Shown one piece after another: positions 20,000 to 26,781 of a stretch of 64,000 nt of DNA. The position numbers and the translations under genes are program-made. The notes under the pieces are model-generated. The model was not told the origin of the DNA and made no database searches. It saw only the letters and a program-made list of their open reading frames with translations. The stretch lies in the NCBI RefSeq assembly GCF_006861795.1, contig NZ_VDGH01000008.1:124001-188000 (forward strand). The letters run 5' to 3'. This DNA is from Psychrobacillus lasiicapitis (GTDB lineage: Bacteria > Bacillota > Bacilli > Bacillales_A > Planococcaceae). Numbering within the stretch: the stretch's first letter is position 1; every line of letters begins with the position of its first letter.

Positions 20000-20662
20000 C
20001 TAATACTTCTCCATCTCACTAGTCCCAGTAATTTCAATTCCATTCAGAGCTTGGGTTGCCAATCGATCCGCTTCCGCATTTGCTTTTCTTGGAACTAACT
20101 CGTATTCTGGCTGAATACCTAAGTCTTTCATTTTAGCTTCAATACGATCTGCCCAACTAGATAAATCCTTTTCTATCACTGGCCATTCTTCACTCAAATG
20201 ATTAATCACGACCTGTGAATCTCCAATGAAGCGGACTGGTAAATGGTGAACCCCCAGAATTTCAAGCTCTTGCAAGCTTAGATAGAACGCCGCATATTCG
20301 GCCTCATTATTAGATACTAGCTCGGTAGCAAACGCATTTCTTCTTAATCGATACGACTTTCCGCTTTGCTCATAATAAATAACACAACCCAAACCAGAGC
20401 TGCTAGATGCTCGCTCGAATCCCCCATCAAAATAAACAGTCACATTATGTGGTTCCGTTTCGATTCCTTTCAAATAGCCCTTCAACTCTTTTATCGTCCA
20501 CGAACTATCAAAACGATCAATGAAAATCACATTTTTTGCGCGACCTATTTTCTCCAAGTCCTCTGCAACAAGTAGGGCTTGAGTTGCCTGCATCTCATCT
20601 GAGCGAAAGGTAATTTCCACCCCTTTAGGAGTCCTATAAATACATTCGATTATCACATTCAT
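20000..20662 (-). CDS. RNase HI-fold protein (YpeP/YpdQ-like)
   Basis: A 220-residue protein with a C-terminal RNase H domain. The metal-binding set is readable: YFDGGF (Asp), NNEAEYAA (Glu), IGDSQVV (Asp) and ANAEADRLA (Asp). It may cut RNA in RNA-DNA hybrids, though B. subtilis relatives of this type are often reported as weak or inactive. The N-terminal 70 residues form an extra domain (EITFRSDEMQATQALLVAE) as in YpeP. ATG at 20662 is preferred over GTG at 20665, because GGAGG at 20674-20670 gives seven bases to the ATG but only four to the GTG. It is monocistronic, with a terminator behind it and the RNA genes upstream. Confidence 0.82.
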   Translation of the reverse strand: MNVIIECIYRTPKGVEITFRSDEMQATQALLVAEDLEKIGRAKNVIFIDRFDSSWTIKELKGYLKGIETEPHNVTVYFDGGFERASSSSGLGCVIYYEQSGKSYRLRRNAFATELVSNNEAEYAAFYLSLQELEILGVHHLPVRFIGDSQVVINHLSEEWPVIEKDLSSWADRIEAKMKDLGIQPEYELVPRKANAEADRLATQALNGIEITGTSEMEKY

Positions 20663-20730
20663 CACAAATCCTCCAAACTATTAAATCCACATAACTATAG
20701 ATTACCCAATACAGTACATTTTTACATATG

Positions 20731-21093
20731 GAAAGAAAAAAGCGTAATCCTAATTGGACTACGCTTTCTTCTTTCCCCTCAATGGGGATACACTCGGAAA
20801 ATTCGCTAATGTTGCTTTGTTAAACCTTTACTGACAATGTTAACTTTCATCTCGTCAGTGCAGTTCACTTCGTCTGAAACATCATCAGACATCAAGGTGC
20901 ACTTCCACAAAAAACTTTTCTTTCACTTGCTAATCATACTCTTTGGGTCAGAACCTAAATATATCGGTTCCCGACGAGAGTGCCTTTCGCCAGTAAAGCA
21001 AATTTTCCGCCAAGGCTGTGCAAATCATCCTTTGGAGTCTCTTGTAAACGCATCGTTTACCAGTCCCTTCCTACGGTAGTTCCGCCTTGTACT
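20731..21093 (-). ncRNA. Unidentified SigB-driven structured RNA, copy 1
   Basis: Non-coding RNA gene inferred from four facts. It has a near-twin 470 bases away (96% identical). It is preceded by a SigB-type promoter. It ends in a hairpin (20739-20767) followed by TTTTTTCTTTC on the minus strand. Several stems keep pairing while loops differ between copies: GTCTGA/TCAGAC (20872-20877, 20885-20890), enclosed by AGTGCA/TGCACT (20857-20862, 20898-20903); CCCC/GGGG at 20775-20786 with a different loop in copy 2; GAACC/GGTTC (20951-20970); and a perfect 7-base stem GTAAACG/CGTTTAC (21044-21060). The 5' half is almost invariant. An 80-codon frame on the opposite strand lacks a ribosome binding site. 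I compared it mentally with RNase P, tmRNA, 6S, SRP RNA and common riboswitches and found no match. Confidence 0.72.
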
Positions 21094-21099
21094 ATTTAT

Positions 21100-21124
21100 A
21101 TACCCTTGAAGAAATTAGTTAAAC
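21100..21124 (-). promoter_or_regulatory. SigB-type promoter of RNA copy 1
   Basis: Minus strand: GTTTAA (21124-21119), a 13-base spacer and GGGTAT (21105-21100). Both boxes match the Bacillus SigB consensus exactly. The two boxes are identical in copy 2, while the spacer differs at five positions, as expected for selection on the promoter elements. Confidence 0.82.
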
Positions 21125-21199
21125 ATCTTTTTTCTTTTTTGTGTATAAAAACTTTATCCACGCTATCCTATAATATATCTTAAAGGTATGTCGAAAAAG

Positions 21200-21563
21200 G
21201 AAAGAAAAAAGCGTAATCCTAATTGGACTACGCTTTCTTCTTTCCCCAAATACGGGGATACACTCGGAAAATTCGCTAATGTTACTTTCCTAAAACGTTA
21301 CTGACAATGTTAACTTCCATCTCGTCAGTGCAGTTCACTTCGTCTGAAACTTCATCAGACATCAAGGTGCACTTCCACAAAAAACTTTTCTTTCACTTGC
21401 CGATCATACTCTTTGGAACAGAACCTAAATATATCGGTTCCCGACGAGAGTGCCTTTCGCCAGTAAAGCAAATTTTCCGCCAAGGCTGTGCAAATCATCC
21501 TTTGGAGTCTCTTGTAAACGCATCGTTTACCAGTCCCTTCCTACGGTAGTTCCGCCTTGTATT
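21200..21563 (-). ncRNA. Unidentified SigB-driven structured RNA, copy 2
   Basis: Second copy of the RNA gene at 20731-21093; similarity runs from 21199 to 21603 and includes promoter and terminator. About 12 substitutions separate the copies over some 316 aligned bases. They cluster in the 3' half (21284-21420), while about 160 bases of the 5' half differ at one site. Its terminator hairpin is at 21209-21236. The stem at 21342-21360 is unchanged with one loop substitution, and the CCCC/GGGG hairpin keeps its stem with loop AAATAC instead of TCAAT. A role in the general stress response is inferred only from the promoter. Confidence 0.72.
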
Positions 21564-21569
21564 ATTTAT

Positions 21570-21594
21570 ATACCCCGCTAGAAAGTAGTTAAAC
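21570..21594 (-). promoter_or_regulatory. SigB-type promoter of RNA copy 2
   Basis: Minus strand: GTTTAA (21594-21589), 13-base spacer, GGGTAT (21575-21570). Exact SigB consensus in both boxes. Transcription would begin near 21563. Confidence 0.82.
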
Positions 21595-21891
21595 ATCTTT
21601 TTTAAAAATATTTTTATATATACAGGGACAAAGTTCGACATATATTGCACGTTCAAGAAGGAAAATATCCATTTATGCATATTCTAGAGATTTTTCTTAT
21701 TAAATTTAGTATATTTGAAATGCAAAAGATGTTTTATACAGGAATTATTAAGTATTTTGTACCTCTTGCAAACACTCATTTATTCTTATTGCATTTATAT
21801 GAGAGAGTACAACATCTTAAAATTAGTTTGGAGAAACTATTTAACCTTTCAGCAAATAGCATGTTAACGATCGCAACAATAGTCTTCTTTT

Positions 21892-22773
21892 TTAATCCAA
21901 GTACTTATTTTTATTTTGTTTAATCGCACTGATATAAAAAGGAAGTTCTAAGAACTCAAAGAAAAACAATGCTTGCTTATATACTTCTTTGATTTCTGTA
22001 ATGGCACCATTCATTTTTTCTAAGCATTGACCTTTATAGTATAAGAATTGGCCAACCAAAAAGAAAAATGATGTCTCTTTTGATTTTTTTATTCCTAAAT
22101 TTGCTGTTTCTAGTGCTTCTTCATAGTCTTTTAACTCATAAAGTATATTGCATTTATTAAAGAGCACTGTAATGAGTGTTTCGTAAATTTTATGGTCGCT
22201 ATAGTTTTTATGAAAATGCTCTTTGAGAATTTTATTATAGTAGTATAAGCTTTTTGGGATTTCTCCATTTTCCGCGTATATATTTGCAATAGAATTACTA
22301 ATTTTAATATGTAAAAAGCGGAATTGAATAGTTGTTTGATTGGAAAAATCTAAAATGCTCTTTAAGCTACTAATACATTCTTCTGGTGTAATGATTTTCA
22401 AATAATAATGTGCTATATCTAAGAGGTATTCTAAGTAGAGATTTAACCAGATATTTTCAGAATCAATTTTGTTATGTTTAATAATTGAAATAATTTTTTT
22501 ATAATTATGTTCTTTTAGATGAAACTCAATATCTTTTATTAATCGTTCACTTTCTAAGACATCTTTATGAAATAACATTTCTATAAAATATTCAACTGGG
22601 ACTTGTAATTTTAAAGCTATTTTTAATAATGTATCAATTGCTGGATATACTTCTCCTGCTTCAATACGGCTAATAGTCGACTGTGTACAAATATTATTTG
22701 CGAGCTCTTTTTGGGACATTCCCATTTCAGTTCTTAGTTTACTAATCTCTAAACCTAAATATTTCATTTCCAA
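21892..22773 (-). CDS. PlcR-like quorum-sensing transcriptional activator (RNPP family)
   Basis: A 293-residue regulator with an N-terminal XRE helix-turn-helix (about residues 4-60; SKLRTEMGMSQKELANNIC, STISRIEAGEVYP) and a C-terminal helical TPR region (about 75-290). The match to Bacillus cereus PlcR, as I remember it, runs the whole length: ISRIEAGEVYPAID beside VSRIESGAVYPSMD, LKLQVPVEYF beside AKLQVPIIHF, NSIANIYAENG beside NAIANIYAENG, and GQFLYYKGQCLEKM beside GQLYYQRGECLRKL. PlcR binds a processed PapR peptide in the TPR domain. A PapR-like gene lies divergently 38 bases away. The TTG start at 22773 is chosen because GGGGTGAT is well placed and it aligns with Met1 of PlcR; ATG at 22767 and GTG at 22782 are alternatives. 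I see no canonical PlcR box (TATGNAN4TNCATA) near it. Confidence 0.83.
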   Translation of the reverse strand: MEMKYLGLEISKLRTEMGMSQKELANNICTQSTISRIEAGEVYPAIDTLLKIALKLQVPVEYFIEMLFHKDVLESERLIKDIEFHLKEHNYKKIISIIKHNKIDSENIWLNLYLEYLLDIAHYYLKIITPEECISSLKSILDFSNQTTIQFRFLHIKISNSIANIYAENGEIPKSLYYYNKILKEHFHKNYSDHKIYETLITVLFNKCNILYELKDYEEALETANLGIKKSKETSFFFLVGQFLYYKGQCLEKMNGAITEIKEVYKQALFFFEFLELPFYISAIKQNKNKYLD

Positions 22774-22811
22774 AAATATCACCCCATACTATTTAAAAGG
22801 ACGGTAATCAC

Positions 22812-22937
22812 ATGAAAAAACTATCTATTATTTTATTAATCGTACTAGCAGTAGCGCTTTATCCAAACGTAAGCAATGAGAGTGCTAAATTTATCGATAA
22901 ACCAATTACTACATTAGATTTACCACTTATCCACTAA
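22812..22937 (+). CDS. PapR-like signalling peptide precursor
   Basis: A 41-codon gene that starts with ATG at 22812 behind AAAAGGA (22795-22801). The protein begins MKKLSIILLIVLAVAL, a typical secretion signal, and continues as a short hydrophilic stretch to the C-terminal LDLPLIH. Bacillus cereus PapR has the same plan: MKKLL-type signal, 48 residues, active C-terminal peptide ADLPFEF. The shared DLP core, size, signal and position beside a PlcR-like receptor make it the likely pheromone precursor. It would be exported by Sec, cut outside and re-imported by an oligopeptide permease (none seen here). In B. cereus papR lies downstream of plcR on the same strand; here it is divergent. A perfect terminator follows, so the gene is monocistronic. 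Confidence 0.75.
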   Translation: MKKLSIILLIVLAVALYPNVSNESAKFIDKPITTLDLPLIH

Positions 22938-22946
22938 TAATAGTAG

Positions 22947-22990
22947 AATCCAATAAAGTTACTATTTCCATTAATTTTATTGGATTTTTC
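22947..22990 (+). terminator. Terminator of the PapR-like gene
   Basis: AATCCAATAAA (22947-22957) and TTTATTGGATT (22976-22986) are perfect complements, followed by a T-run. It separates the pheromone gene from the EAL gene. Confidence 0.88.
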
Positions 22991-23097
22991 AAATATTACA
23001 ATGTAAATAATTAACAATACCCTCTCCTAATACCCATCTAAACATGCATTTCAATCTGGAGAGAGCTCTAAAACTAAAATATACAAGGAGAACGACT

Positions 23098-24051
23098 ATG
23101 CAACTAAAAGCAAATAGTGTTGAATATTACCCTTTACACGTAGAAAGTAACTCAGACAATGTAAGTGATCATTTTAAAAATACTAGTTCTGAATTAAATA
23201 ATATAGTTAAGCCTGGGCAACAACTATTTGCATTATCAGCGAATGATGAAAAAGAATCACATTCACTGGAGTTGGACCTTGGATATGCTATAGAGCGAAA
23301 CCAATTGGAGTTGTATTATCAGCCTAAAGTCTTTGCAAAGACCAAGCAAATAATTGGTGCAGAAGCACTGATTAGATGGAATCATCCAAACCATGGCATG
23401 ATATCCCCAGCCGAATTCATACCTTTGGCAGAACAAACAGGATTAATAAAAGAAATTGGAAAATGGGTTACAAGAACAGCTTGTATGCAAAATAAAGATT
23501 GGCAAAATGCCAAGCTACCGATGATTCCCATTTCTATTAATTTATCTGCTAATCACTTCCTAGAAAAAGATTTAATCAGCAACATAGTACAAACATTGAA
23601 AGAAACTAACTTAGAACCTCAATACTTAGAAATTGAAATTACTGAAACGTCTCTATTGGAAGAGGAAGAAATTGTTTTCTCTATTTTAGAGGAACTAAGA
23701 AATTTAGGTATTAAAATTTCTTTAGATGATTTTGGAACAGGTTACTCGTCCCTTTCCTATCTTAATCGATTTAAAGGTAAATTAGATATTCTTAAAATTG
23801 ATCGTTCTTTTATTCGTGATTTAAGTAGTTCACATGAAGAGGATTCCAATTTTATTGTGAATATGATTATCCAATTGTCGCATCAGCTGAAGATGGAAGT
23901 AATTGCTGAAGGCGTTGAAACGAATGAACAGCTGCAAGTATTACAAAAATACAATTGCAATATTATTCAAGGTTACTTGTTCTCTAAACCACTAACTGCA
24001 TCTAAATTTGCCGACTTACTAAAAACGTCCCTATGTGAGAAACAAGACTAA
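23098..24051 (+). CDS. EAL-domain cyclic-di-GMP phosphodiesterase
   Basis: A 317-residue cytosolic protein. The first 60 residues have no recognisable domain. The EAL domain fills about 62-312 and looks catalytically complete: GAEALIRW (the EAL glutamate), a conserved NLS in SINLSANHF, EITET, DDFGTGYSSL (metal-binding Asp pair), KIDRSF, EGVET and the C-terminal QGYLFSKP. It should hydrolyse cyclic di-GMP to pGpG and so favour motility over surface growth. There is no GGDEF, PAS or membrane segment. ATG at 23098 is chosen because AAGGAG precedes it; a longer frame from 23044 has none. It lies downstream of the pheromone gene but beyond that gene's terminator. Confidence 0.9.
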   Translation: MQLKANSVEYYPLHVESNSDNVSDHFKNTSSELNNIVKPGQQLFALSANDEKESHSLELDLGYAIERNQLELYYQPKVFAKTKQIIGAEALIRWNHPNHGMISPAEFIPLAEQTGLIKEIGKWVTRTACMQNKDWQNAKLPMIPISINLSANHFLEKDLISNIVQTLKETNLEPQYLEIEITETSLLEEEEIVFSILEELRNLGIKISLDDFGTGYSSLSYLNRFKGKLDILKIDRSFIRDLSSSHEEDSNFIVNMIIQLSHQLKMEVIAEGVETNEQLQVLQKYNCNIIQGYLFSKPLTASKFADLLKTSLCEKQD

Positions 24052-24066
24052 ATTGTTTCTTACATA
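24032..24066 (+). terminator. Hairpin at the end of the EAL gene
   Basis: TATGTGAGAAACAA (24032-24045) pairs with TTGTTTCTTACATA (24053-24066) with one wobble, overlapping the stop codon. The T-run begins a few bases later, so termination may be weaker. Confidence 0.6.
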
Positions 24067-24122
24067 AGGACATTTTTTTAATAATAGCAGTTTTGCTTGA
24101 CTCTTAGATCAAAAGAAGAAAA

Positions 24123-25148
24123 CTATTTGGCCATATCTAGCGCCTTAAGCAGTTCCGCAATTTGATCATTCTGCTGATCTAAAAATTCTTTAAAGTCTTC
24201 TGAGTTTTTATAGTCACTTTCCCAACCAGCACTTGTCATTGCTGTTTTCCATTCTTCTGTTTCTACCATTTGTTGAATCTTCTCATTCCAGTAGCTAAGC
24301 GCATCTTCGCTTATCTCTTTCGGTCCAAAGATCCCTCTCCAAATCATAAATTCCGCATCGATACCTAGTTCATTCATAGTTGGGACATCTTTCAGTTCTC
24401 CTCCCATCCGCTCTGGAGAAGCGACCGCAAGCACTTTTACTTCGCCAGCTTTTACATACTGGGTTACGGATGAAGCATCTGTTGCAAGTACATCCGCATT
24501 ACCACCTAGTAAAGCAGTCATGGCTTCGCCGGTGCCATCATACGAGACGTATTTGATTGATTTATGATCTATTCCCGTCTTATATGCAGGTAAAATGGAA
24601 ACTAAATGATACATCGAGCCAGGGCCTGATCCTCCAGCAAATGAAAGAGAGGTAGGATCCTTTTTTAAATCATCTAATAATGCTTGAAGATCATTATACT
24701 TTGAATCTGCTTTAACAACAATTGAGCCATAATCTTTTGTTAATTGGGCAAGAGGTGTCGTATCATTATGTCCAAATGGGCTATTCCCTTCTTTTTTCAA
24801 ATGATTAATCAAAACAGGAGGTGAACCCGTGAATAATTTGTAGTCATTTTTAGCATCTTGCGTAACATAGCTAGCAAGAAACACAGTTCCGCCACCGCCT
24901 GGCTTATTTTCAACCATCATACTTCCATCCACAAGCTTGGCATCTGTCATCACTTTCGTAAATGTACGAGCTGTTCTATCCCAGCCTCCCCCTGGTCCAG
25001 AAGGTGCTACGACAACAATTGCTTTTTCTGGGTACGTATTTTTATTAGCTCCACTAGCGGTATTACTTCCTGTTCCACTACAGCCAGCTAACCCTAACGC
25101 CATAACCGTTCCTAATAGAATACCTTTCCATTTTGCCGTTTTCATCAA
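24123..25148 (-). CDS. TctC/Bug-family substrate-binding lipoprotein
   Basis: Binding protein of the tripartite tricarboxylate transporter type, 341 residues. The signal ends in the lipobox LAGC (Cys near residue 23), so it is a membrane-anchored lipoprotein. Family motifs are the VVVAPSGPGGGWDRTAR ligand loop near residue 48 and the GGSGPGSMYHLV segment. The usual partners TctA and TctB are absent on both sides, so it is an orphan here. It lies downstream of a TcuA-like dehydrogenase with a 124-base gap that holds a perfect cre site, so it probably has its own CcpA-sensitive promoter. The likely ligand is a tri- or dicarboxylate (inference). Confidence 0.87.
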   Translation of the reverse strand: MMKTAKWKGILLGTVMALGLAGCSGTGSNTASGANKNTYPEKAIVVVAPSGPGGGWDRTARTFTKVMTDAKLVDGSMMVENKPGGGGTVFLASYVTQDAKNDYKLFTGSPPVLINHLKKEGNSPFGHNDTTPLAQLTKDYGSIVVKADSKYNDLQALLDDLKKDPTSLSFAGGSGPGSMYHLVSILPAYKTGIDHKSIKYVSYDGTGEAMTALLGGNADVLATDASSVTQYVKAGEVKVLAVASPERMGGELKDVPTMNELGIDAEFMIWRGIFGPKEISEDALSYWNEKIQQMVETEEWKTAMTSAGWESDYKNSEDFKEFLDQQNDQIAELLKALDMAK

Positions 25149-25199
25149 TACTACTTCACCCCTTCAGATAGTATAAATCTCCATTTTTGCAGCAAATCT

Positions 25200-25213
25200 T
25201 GAAAGCGTATACA
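25200..25213. promoter_or_regulatory. cre site (CcpA operator) upstream of the TctC-type gene
   Basis: TGAAAGCGTATACA matches the consensus WTGNNARCGNWWWCAW at every position, including the flanking T at 25199 and T at 25214. It lies 52 bases ahead of the lipoprotein gene, which suggests carbon catabolite repression. Confidence 0.7.
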
Positions 25214-25230
25214 TTCTTATTTAAATGAAA

Positions 25231-25254
25231 CTCCCCGACAGCATAATCAGGGAG
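25231..25254 (-). terminator. Weak hairpin after the tcuA-like gene
   Basis: CTCCC and GGGAG pair around a 14-base loop; the minus strand then reads GAGTTTCATT. The stem is short, so termination may be partial. Confidence 0.35.
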
Positions 25255-25272
25255 AATTCTTTTCGTATAAAA

Positions 25273-26781
25273 TTAGTTCACCAACTCCGCATTTTTACCT
25301 AGGATATACTGTGCAGCAGATGTGCCGGCTAATTTTCCATAAACGGCACCAGACATTAGACCAGACCCACCTGGATAGTTTTCGTAAAAAATTCCACCAA
25401 TCATTTCACCAGCCGCAAACAGTCCTTTAATCGGTTGTTCTTCTTGATTTAGCACTTCCCCCGATGTATTTACATGTAATCCACCAAACGAGAAGGTGAT
25501 CCCGCATGTTACAGGGAAAGCATAGAATGGAGATTTCTCAATCCGGAGTGCCCAGTTCGATTTTGATGGAGTAATTCCTTTCGTTCCTTTACCATCTTTC
25601 TCAGCGGGCTTATAATCGCCTTCCTGCACAGCTTGGTTATACTCTTCGATTGTTTCTAAAAATTGTTTTTGATTTACCGGCAATAAATTCGCAAGTTCTT
25701 CTAGCGAATCTGCTTGATAGAAAGTTGCTTCTTCCAAGTCATATTCTTTCCGCAACATCGGGCGAACTTGAGCATCATAAATTTGGTAAGCTATATGACC
25801 AGGTTGTTTTAATACTTCCCGACCATATTTGGCATACGTATAATTCCGTAAATCTGCTCCTTCATCTACAAAACGTTTTCCCTCTTTATTCAGCATAATG
25901 CTGTAAGGATACGAATGCTTTTTAAAAATATCTCCTGGTTTTGTAAAGTCTCCGACAATCGGTGCATTAGAATCTGTTCCAATCGAATGACAGCCAGACC
26001 ATTCTCCAAATTTTTGTGCTCCAACTTCTAAAGCCATGAATATACCGTCACCTGTGTTAAATTCAGTCCCACGAACAATGGCAGCTTCCCATTCTTCACC
26101 GATATGTTCGCTTCTCAATTTCTTATTGGCCTCGAAACTTCCGCAAGCTAAAATTACACCGACTGTATTTACTGTAATTGTCTCGTTATCTTTTTCCACA
26201 ACAATTCCCGTAATTTGGTCGTTCTCTTTTATTAATTTTACCGCTCGCGCTTCATACCATATATCGATTTCGAGCTCTTTCACTCTTGCGAAAAGCTGCT
26301 TCATTAACCCAACGCCTTTATCTTCTGTTTTAATAGGCAGACCTCCCCAAAAGTGGCGCTTACCATCTTCCATAAAGGATTGATTTTCATAGTTTAACTC
26401 AAATTTAAGTCCTTGATCTCGCATCCATGCAATCGTTTCATAAGATTTAGAAACTAACTGCTTCGCAAGCCCAGGATTACTTTTTCCACCTGTAACGCGC
26501 ATCAAATCATTATAATAATCGCTTTCATCGTATTCGGGCATCATGATTATATCTGCTTCTTCATCTGTCAATTCTGGTATGATCTTTCGGATAGCTTCTA
26601 AATTATTATAAGCAACACGAATCGCCCCATCTGTAAAAAAGGAGTTCCCTCCACGTTTTTTCTCAGGTCCTCTTTCCAAAACAAGAACATTCGCCCCACC
26701 CTCTTTTGCGGCAATCGCCGAACATAAAGCTGCATTCCCTGCTCCAACTACCACTACATCATAACTTTGTGTATGTGACAT
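25273..26781 (-). CDS. tcuA: FAD-dependent tricarballylate dehydrogenase-like flavoprotein (TcuA family)
   Basis: A 502-residue flavoprotein of the fumarate reductase/succinate dehydrogenase group. The FAD-binding motif VVVVGAGNAALCSAIAA follows the N-terminus, with RGGNSFFTDGAIR next; that run is typical of TcuA, which oxidises tricarballylate to cis-aconitate. The C-terminal FSFGGLHVN and NYPGGSGLMSGAVYG segments complete the fold. The start at 26781 follows GAAGGAGGGG; a longer frame to 26865 lacks a site. TcuB, which reoxidises TcuA in Salmonella, is not adjacent. A LysR gene is divergent and a TctC-type lipoprotein gene follows, which supports a role in tricarboxylate use. Other 2-enoate reductase-type roles are possible. 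Confidence 0.78.
   Translation of the reverse strand: MSHTQSYDVVVVGAGNAALCSAIAAKEGGANVLVLERGPEKKRGGNSFFTDGAIRVAYNNLEAIRKIIPELTDEEADIIMMPEYDESDYYNDLMRVTGGKSNPGLAKQLVSKSYETIAWMRDQGLKFELNYENQSFMEDGKRHFWGGLPIKTEDKGVGLMKQLFARVKELEIDIWYEARAVKLIKENDQITGIVVEKDNETITVNTVGVILACGSFEANKKLRSEHIGEEWEAAIVRGTEFNTGDGIFMALEVGAQKFGEWSGCHSIGTDSNAPIVGDFTKPGDIFKKHSYPYSIMLNKEGKRFVDEGADLRNYTYAKYGREVLKQPGHIAYQIYDAQVRPMLRKEYDLEEATFYQADSLEELANLLPVNQKQFLETIEEYNQAVQEGDYKPAEKDGKGTKGITPSKSNWALRIEKSPFYAFPVTCGITFSFGGLHVNTSGEVLNQEEQPIKGLFAAGEMIGGIFYENYPGGSGLMSGAVYGKLAGTSAAQYILGKNAELVN

Follow-up and report, generated by a model that had tools for sequence, protein, structure and literature searches.

In the Bacillus cereus group, the receptor PlcR and its pheromone PapR fall into four classes, which keep Glu6 of the peptide and differ in its three N-terminal residues (PMC6568020). 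The sole specific contacts given there for the PlcR-DNA-PapR complex are those of Glu6 with Lys89, Gln237 and Tyr275. PMC5007282 places the class differences in the first and last residue of a pentapeptide and reports that Lys197 meets the PapR C-terminus. For Bacillales receptors, the pheromone gene is stated to be immediately downstream (PMC9765709); for PlcRa/PapRa, built on a B. cereus PlcR paralogue, it is upstream of the receptor (PMC3519770). Here we describe a PlcR-type regulator and a divergent gene for a PapR-like propeptide in a 64-kb window, the whole stretch analysed, of the 4.49-Mb genome of Psychrobacillus lasiicapitis. We consider it highly probable that they form a PlcR/PapR-like quorum-sensing pair, with receptor residues matched to individual pheromone positions, that likely controls a downstream gene for an EAL-domain cyclic di-GMP (c-di-GMP) phosphodiesterase. 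The case is built from sequence, namely homology, fold, conservation of the small open-reading frame (ORF), covariation and co-occurrence of the EAL gene; from these we infer export, cleavage, uptake, binding, regulatory sign and target.

In the proposed mechanism, the 41-residue propeptide would be exported via Sec and cut outside the cell to its C-terminal heptapeptide (here LDLPLIH), which would be re-imported and bound in the tetratricopeptide repeat (TPR) groove of the regulator. Binding would alter the regulator's interaction with DNA, and hence the transcription of genes under its control; the likeliest of these are the pheromone's own gene and the EAL gene that follows it. If the phosphodiesterase is a target, a dense population of one pherotype would therefore lower its c-di-GMP. 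Pheromone changes at positions 5, 6 and 7 are matched by changes of receptor residues 205/166, 237/234 and 160/125, respectively (PlcR numbering is used for all receptor positions).

The regulator and its propeptide gene

The first-pass annotation of this DNA had the 293-residue regulator matching PlcR along its full length, and the alignment, which spans 284 residues, bears this out. Identity is 100 of 278 aligned positions overall and 34 of 66 within the helix-turn-helix (HTH) domain. Pfam models HTH_3 and RNPP_C both match, the AlphaFold model is all helical with a predicted local distance difference test score (pLDDT) of 90.1, and the nearest characterised relative is PlcR by sequence as well as by fold. 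The features of the PlcR subfamily of RRNPPA regulators are present: an HTH joined to an RNPP-type TPR domain, about 290 residues, and an adjacent propeptide gene. Of the reported PapR contacts of PlcR, Lys87, Gln237 and Tyr275 are kept, as are Asn159 and Asn201, further PapR contacts; Lys89 is replaced by His and Lys197 by Thr. The partner of Lys89, Glu6, is itself absent. Position 6 of the pheromone is Ile, Val, Thr or Ala, never Glu, in all 34 Psychrobacillus pairs, in agreement with the earlier remark that the peptide departs from PapR outside the DLP core. Residue 89 is His in 33 of the 34 receptors (Gln in P0068). Two start codons are available to the regulator. Because TTGGAA is kept in 14/14 aligned orthologues and the downstream ATG is ATT in one (L011), we favour the TTG start.

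The small ORF lies, as first annotated, 38 bases away on the other strand. Its 41-residue product is MKKLSIILLIVLAVALYPNVSNESAKFIDKPITTLDLPLIH, and alignment agrees with the stated likeness in plan between its C-terminal LDLPLIH and PapR ADLPFEF. The heptapeptide length is borrowed from PapR and is a prediction here. ATCACC, before the regulator, occurs in the intergenic stretch of 14/14 aligned genomes and AAAGGACGG, before the peptide gene, in 10/14; these appear to be the ribosome-binding sites of the two genes, whose promoters probably extend into the adjoining coding regions.

A full-length regulator is found in 14 of 19 Psychrobacillus genomes, and 13 of those 14 carry a divergent ORF of 41-48 codons ending in xDLPxxx. 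Its ATG is 37-42 bases from the regulator TTG in 12 of the 13 and 19 bases away in L006. The first-pass annotation had named two findings that would count against it, absence of the small ORF from genomes with the regulator and loss of the PapR-contact residues; neither was seen. A propeptide profile finds this locus in 13/19 genomes, with three weak matches elsewhere (E 0.002-0.006). Across the 13 genomes, the ORF is under purifying selection: the ratio of nonsynonymous to synonymous substitution (dN/dS) is 0.24 overall, 0.16 for residues 1-19, 0.39 for the middle and 0.17 for the last ten residues, and pN/pS is 0.376 for the whole ORF vs 0.18 for the regulator. That the ORF is spurious, or encodes a secreted peptide with another role, is scarcely credible to us. 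Pfam and NCBIfam have no model that fits it at E up to 1, which would suit such a reading, but it is conserved, selectively constrained and covaries with the receptor, and several public genomes already annotate it as a hypothetical protein. In the protein database, 40 relatives appear at E up to 1; the named ones come from Psychrobacillus, with one from Bacillus sp. FJAT-22090, and are labelled hypothetical or uncharacterised. Judged by conservation, single-locus profile matches and purifying selection, the small ORF is more than a chance reading frame.

Signal sequences commonly drift. In ten genomes, the signal-sequence part of this propeptide (22812-22868) is near-invariant, MKKLSIILLIVLAVALYPN, with pN 0.023 vs pS 0.375; the corresponding values for the regulator HTH are 0.038 and 0.491. 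The segment is thus as strict as the HTH, and looser once the three peptides of the L004/L006/L014 type are included.

Covariation of pheromone and receptor

The 34 Psychrobacillus pairs carry 23 heptapeptides, in which D-L-P is constant and differences fall only at positions 1, 5, 6 and 7, mainly the last three. In a discovery set of 13 genome pairs, four receptor columns separated pheromone states that had arisen more than once: Lys237 and Phe212 with Thr6, Thr205 with Tyr5, and Ser160 with His7. His5 and position 1 gave more columns and were not carried forward. Residues 160, 205 and 237 were fixed before the hold-out test; features 166, 234 and 125 were chosen after all data had been seen. 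Hold-out receptors and peptides came from separate listings of the protein database and were joined by identical length of the longest contig in 24 cases and by strain name in one. Four of these 25 pairs repeat a genome pair, leaving 21. Since the peptides represent 90% clusters, the one displayed could differ from the genome's own; the four checkable pairs all agree.

In the hold-out pairs, Ser160 accompanies His7 in 8/8 cases and is seen in 0/13 others, Lys237 accompanies Thr6 in 3/3 (0/18 others), and Thr205 accompanies Tyr5 in 6/6 (1/15 others, P0068). Post hoc, over all 34 pairs, Asn7 goes with Thr160 and with Tyr125 (9/9 each), Phe7 with Ala160 (4/4), Val6 with Phe234 (7/7), and His5 with Ala or Ser166 (10/10) and Val205 (9/10). 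Unguided normalised mutual information over 186 variable receptor columns puts 205 at the top for position 5, 234 for position 6 and 160 for position 7, in the full set and in the 21 hold-out pairs alone. From residues 205 and 166, position 5 was predicted correctly in 19 of the 21 (majority class 6); residues 237 and 234 gave position 6 in 20 (majority class 13), and residue 160 gave position 7 in 17 (majority class 8). For position 1, no receptor column survived the hold-out.

Adjacent genes are inherited together, and joint descent rather than contact could in principle produce such a match. Val6/Phe234 changed only once on the receptor tree and so carries little weight, and few changes fall on well supported branches. 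Yet on one parsimony resolution of a receptor tree that covers all 34 and omits eight pocket columns, His7 changes 9 times and Ser160 changes on those very 9 branches; all 7 changes of Tyr5 coincide with Thr205 (8 changes) and all 3 of Thr6 with Lys237. Other receptor columns are equally linked and do not follow: among 415 residue-columns, the runners-up share 4, 3 and 2 of these changes. Residue Gln237 is, moreover, a reported PapR contact (PMC6568020), and the residues concerned sit in alternate TPR helices. We therefore regard joint inheritance as a very improbable explanation. Helices 106-122, 147-166 and 192-211 of the model hold covarying residues, and the rest fall where helix 238-251 begins or shortly ahead of it, an arrangement expected for one face of the TPR array. 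The covariation speaks for binding of the peptide by the receptor. The pheromone's last residues vary together with particular receptor residues, which suggests a readable code of cell-to-cell signalling.

One genome, G008, has an orphan receptor (L016) with Thr160, Lys125, Ala166, Val205, Leu234 and Gln237. These residues predict a signal DLPHI followed by Tyr or Asn, made by others.

An open question in quorum sensing is how a receptor and its peptide signal can both change and still make contact. Here, one genus holds 23 heptapeptides in 34 pairs; changes recur, and each of the last three positions has its matching receptor residue, so stepwise evolution of specificity becomes testable by single substitutions. 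The covariation also yields a rule for assigning signals to orphan receptors. A full-text literature search, judged by title, returned no work on the Psychrobacillus system. Three surveys of the receptors (PMC9765709, PMC10075063 and PMC12700828) do not mention Psychrobacillus in their main texts; their supplements fell outside this comparison and may list the genus.

The EAL gene, the regulatory sign and the weight of the evidence

The first gene downstream of the pheromone gene encodes a stand-alone EAL protein that resembles solved phosphodiesterases such as MucR and carries EAL, DDFGTGYSS and EGVET stretches, presumably the catalytic motifs. Among the 19 genomes, the same 13 and no others carry both the pheromone gene and a stand-alone EAL gene (E up to 1e-60, open frame shorter than 370 codons), which in each case follows the pheromone gene immediately and in the same orientation; the other six have longer EAL proteins only. 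The peptide and phosphodiesterase genes may thus form a unit controlled by the receptor, and the EAL gene is a likely target, which points to a direct connection between a PlcR-type signal and c-di-GMP. Alternatively, the EAL gene could be a mere neighbour with its own promoter, outside the control of the pair, whose real targets would lie elsewhere. We give this alternative serious weight while holding it to be somewhat less than an even chance. It is favoured by a hairpin between the two genes, which folds at -15.6 kcal/mol (22938-23000, z -5.8), is strong at the same place in 10/13 genomes (weak in L004, L006 and L014) and is a possible terminator or attenuator, and by a ribosome-binding-like site of the EAL gene's own. 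It is opposed by the exact co-occurrence, down to the orphan G008, which lacks both the pheromone gene and the EAL gene. In G013, the EAL copy has an in-frame TGA within the matched stretch. In another family, an EAL-domain ORF (659-1405 in L119, 46% identity) is convergent to a PlcR-like regulator.

The sign of control could also be reversed, with the peptide releasing or inactivating a repressor, as for PrgX, rather than switching on an activator. Divergent starts 38 bp apart suit mutual repression, and the PlcR box is absent at the locus. The closest relative by sequence and fold, however, is PlcR, whose DNA binding requires its peptide (PMC5007282), and we judge a repressor unlikely. As the first-pass annotation had noted, no canonical box is present: the exact pattern TATGNAN4TNCATA has no match in the 64-kb window, and 49 sites with 1-2 mismatches compare with 55 in shuffles. 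A copy with one mismatch lies behind the regulator (21666-21681).

Several observations weigh against an activating PlcR/PapR-like pair with matched residues and an EAL target. The PlcR box is missing at the locus and shows no clear genus-wide excess: 19 genomes hold 218 sites vs 210 for the reversed control (5-21 vs 6-15 per genome). The M4 protease domain PF02868 is found in 0/19 genus genomes, while a control search finds the B. subtilis copy; NprB thus appears to have no counterpart in Psychrobacillus. The Sec signal of the propeptide, proposed in the first-pass annotation and accepted here, was called by eye rather than by a predictor. The 21 hold-out pairs were joined across listings, not read from one DNA record. 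Phe212 as the mark of Thr6, set beforehand, failed: it is present in 1/3 new Thr6 pairs and also in P0007 (Ile6). Column 237 ranks just fifth for position 6, and raw mutual information puts column 125 over 160 for position 7. Well supported branches leave 4, 4 and 2 independent pairs for His7, Tyr5 and Thr6; nearly all agree and they are too few for a sign test. G008 keeps a regulator without a peptide gene or stand-alone EAL gene, and the strong hairpin means that the peptide and EAL genes could be expressed separately.

Box sites exceed the reversed control in the window's own genome (21 vs 11) and in G013 (20 vs 9). PapR is matured by the M4 neutral protease NprB in B. cereus. We dropped thermolysin-like cutting before hydrophobic residue 1 as the maturation step because the M4 domain was not found in the 19 genomes.

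Taking the evidence together, we lean towards a combinatorial and readable code, in which each of the residue sets 160/125, 205/166 and 237/234 would recognise one of the three final pheromone positions, single changes arising independently would give species new private signals, and c-di-GMP would be set by the signal through the linked phosphodiesterase.

The features of the locus are collected in Table 1. Between an ORF at 20000-20665 and the regulator, a tandem duplication of about 350 bp (20730-21083 and 21199-21553) has copies that agree over 300 nt at 96% and 49 nt at 100%, spaced 469-470 apart. It has no Rfam match, and no RNA family scores above its own threshold in 20000-25500.

Table 1. 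Coordinates of the receptor, propeptide, heptapeptide and neighbouring features in the window
Feature	Position	Strand	Remarks
PlcR-type receptor/regulator	21892..22773	-	HTH + RNPP_C (TPR) domain; 293 aa from TTG 22773, 291 aa from ATG 22767
PapR-like propeptide gene, 41 codons	22812..22937	+	two Lys, hydrophobic segment, polar middle, C-terminal LDLPLIH
Codons of predicted mature heptapeptide LDLPLIH (positions 1-7)	22914..22934	+	alignment with PapR ADLPFEF and 12 orthologues
Intergenic stretch between both start codons, 38 bp	22774..22811	.	14-genome alignment
Codon of His, PlcR position 89 (Lys in PlcR, binds PapR Glu6)	22507..22509	-	
Codon of Ser, PlcR position 160; tracks pheromone position 7 (His)	22291..22293	-	
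Codon of Ile, PlcR position 205; tracks pheromone position 5	22144..22146	-	
Codon of Gln, PlcR position 237; Lys with pheromone Thr6	22048..22050	-	
Codon of Leu, PlcR position 234; Phe with pheromone Val6	22057..22059	-	
A/U-rich hairpin, 17-bp stem, 10-nt loop	22945..22988	+	after peptide gene, before EAL gene
Stand-alone EAL-domain protein (c-di-GMP phosphodiesterase), 317 aa	23098..24051	+	first gene downstream of pheromone gene

Related pairs and known systems

PlcR-like receptors are found, Psychrobacillus included, in 46 of 261 family genomes and 11 of 19 genera at E up to 1e-18. With the limit at 1e-25, and again counting Psychrobacillus, a sample of 398 genomes from the class has them in 59. 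A motif-filtered search gave candidate peptides for 47 of 151 regulators, 13/14 in the genus and 34/137 outside. By eye, eight candidate ORFs were dropped as chance (L006 and L092 on the same strand, L085, L108, L115_3, L143 and the second matches of L079 and L135). L082 was excluded for a receptor piece under 270 residues, and L092 was added for its internal KELPFEF repeats: a convergent propeptide with three copies adjoins its PlcR-like receptor. Of the 29 pairs retained outside the genus, some may be chance, because the control count (20, from a zone of 700-1400 bases) is per ORF start and not directly comparable, and several are near relatives of each other. The first-pass annotation had claimed a separate signalling specificity in another genus; the claim holds and was understated, given the diversity within Psychrobacillus and the candidates in other genera.

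Gene order is divergent in 13/13 Psychrobacillus pairs, as that annotation had said. The implied peculiarity does not stand, and we reject divergence as unique to this system: outside the genus, the 29 pairs divide into 14 that are divergent, 7 that are convergent and 8 with the peptide gene downstream in the same orientation. With 14 divergent and 7 convergent pairs, the "immediately downstream" rule stated in PMC9765709 misfits this sample.

Across genera, position 6 and residues 89, 237 and 275 appear to go together in most pairs, although the counts are not independent events because many pairs are near relatives. Most peptides outside Psychrobacillus have Glu or Gln at position 6: residue 89 is Lys or Gln in 7/10 pairs with Glu6, and Arg89, Glu237 and Phe275 accompany Gln6 in 12/12. 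Residues 89/237/275 accompanying Glu6 are Lys/Gln/Tyr in PlcR and L049-L051 (L083 has His at 275) and Gln/Asn/Tyr in L061, L062 and L067; Arg89/Glu237/Phe275 also occurs with Cys6 (L102, L103). A strict rule of Glu6 with Lys or Gln89 fails on L069 (INIPSEP) and L071 (EDIPAEP), both His89, and on L092 (Gly89). Ser160 as a mark of His7 in all PlcR-like receptors was likewise rejected: outside the genus it accompanies 17/18 His endings, yet also 8/11 other ends. In Rummeliibacillus (L063), a divergent 34-codon ORF ends in LDLPFVH, a heptapeptide equal to that of Psychrobacillus L009 and L012, beside a receptor with His89 that scores 235 bits vs about 500 for Psychrobacillus receptors. The shared heptapeptide reflects either cross-talk or convergence.

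The Psychrobacillus pair is closest in plan to PlcR/PapR, with an HTH and TPR receptor of the same length and fold, a propeptide of about 40 residues, a C-terminal D-L-P heptapeptide, and Lys87, Asn159, Asn201, Gln237 and Tyr275 shared with the window's protein. Unlike papR, which is downstream of plcR on the same strand, the pheromone gene is divergent; Glu6 is replaced by Ile, Val, Thr or Ala and Lys89 by His (Gln in one); the locus has no PlcR box, an M4 protease was not found, and an EAL gene lies downstream. PapR classes vary N-terminally with Glu6 kept, whereas Psychrobacillus peptides vary at positions 5-7 and 1. Work of Bouillaut from 2008 reportedly assigns PapR group specificity to residue 278 of the receptor and to the initial residues of the pheromone, at the other end of the peptide than in Psychrobacillus. 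Other PlcR-like pairs, from this and further families of the class, share the receptor family and an LP or IP near the peptide C-terminus. PlcRa/PapRa is similar in its PlcR-like fold by homology model, in a small exported peptide gene upstream and in a palindromic box that was not found, and differs in that CSIPYEY is internal in the precursor, Glu6 is kept and the direct target is abrB2 (PMC3519770). In ComR/ComS of streptococci, a different subfamily with another function, co-evolution of a pheromone and its RRNPP sensor has likewise been published (PMC8605241).
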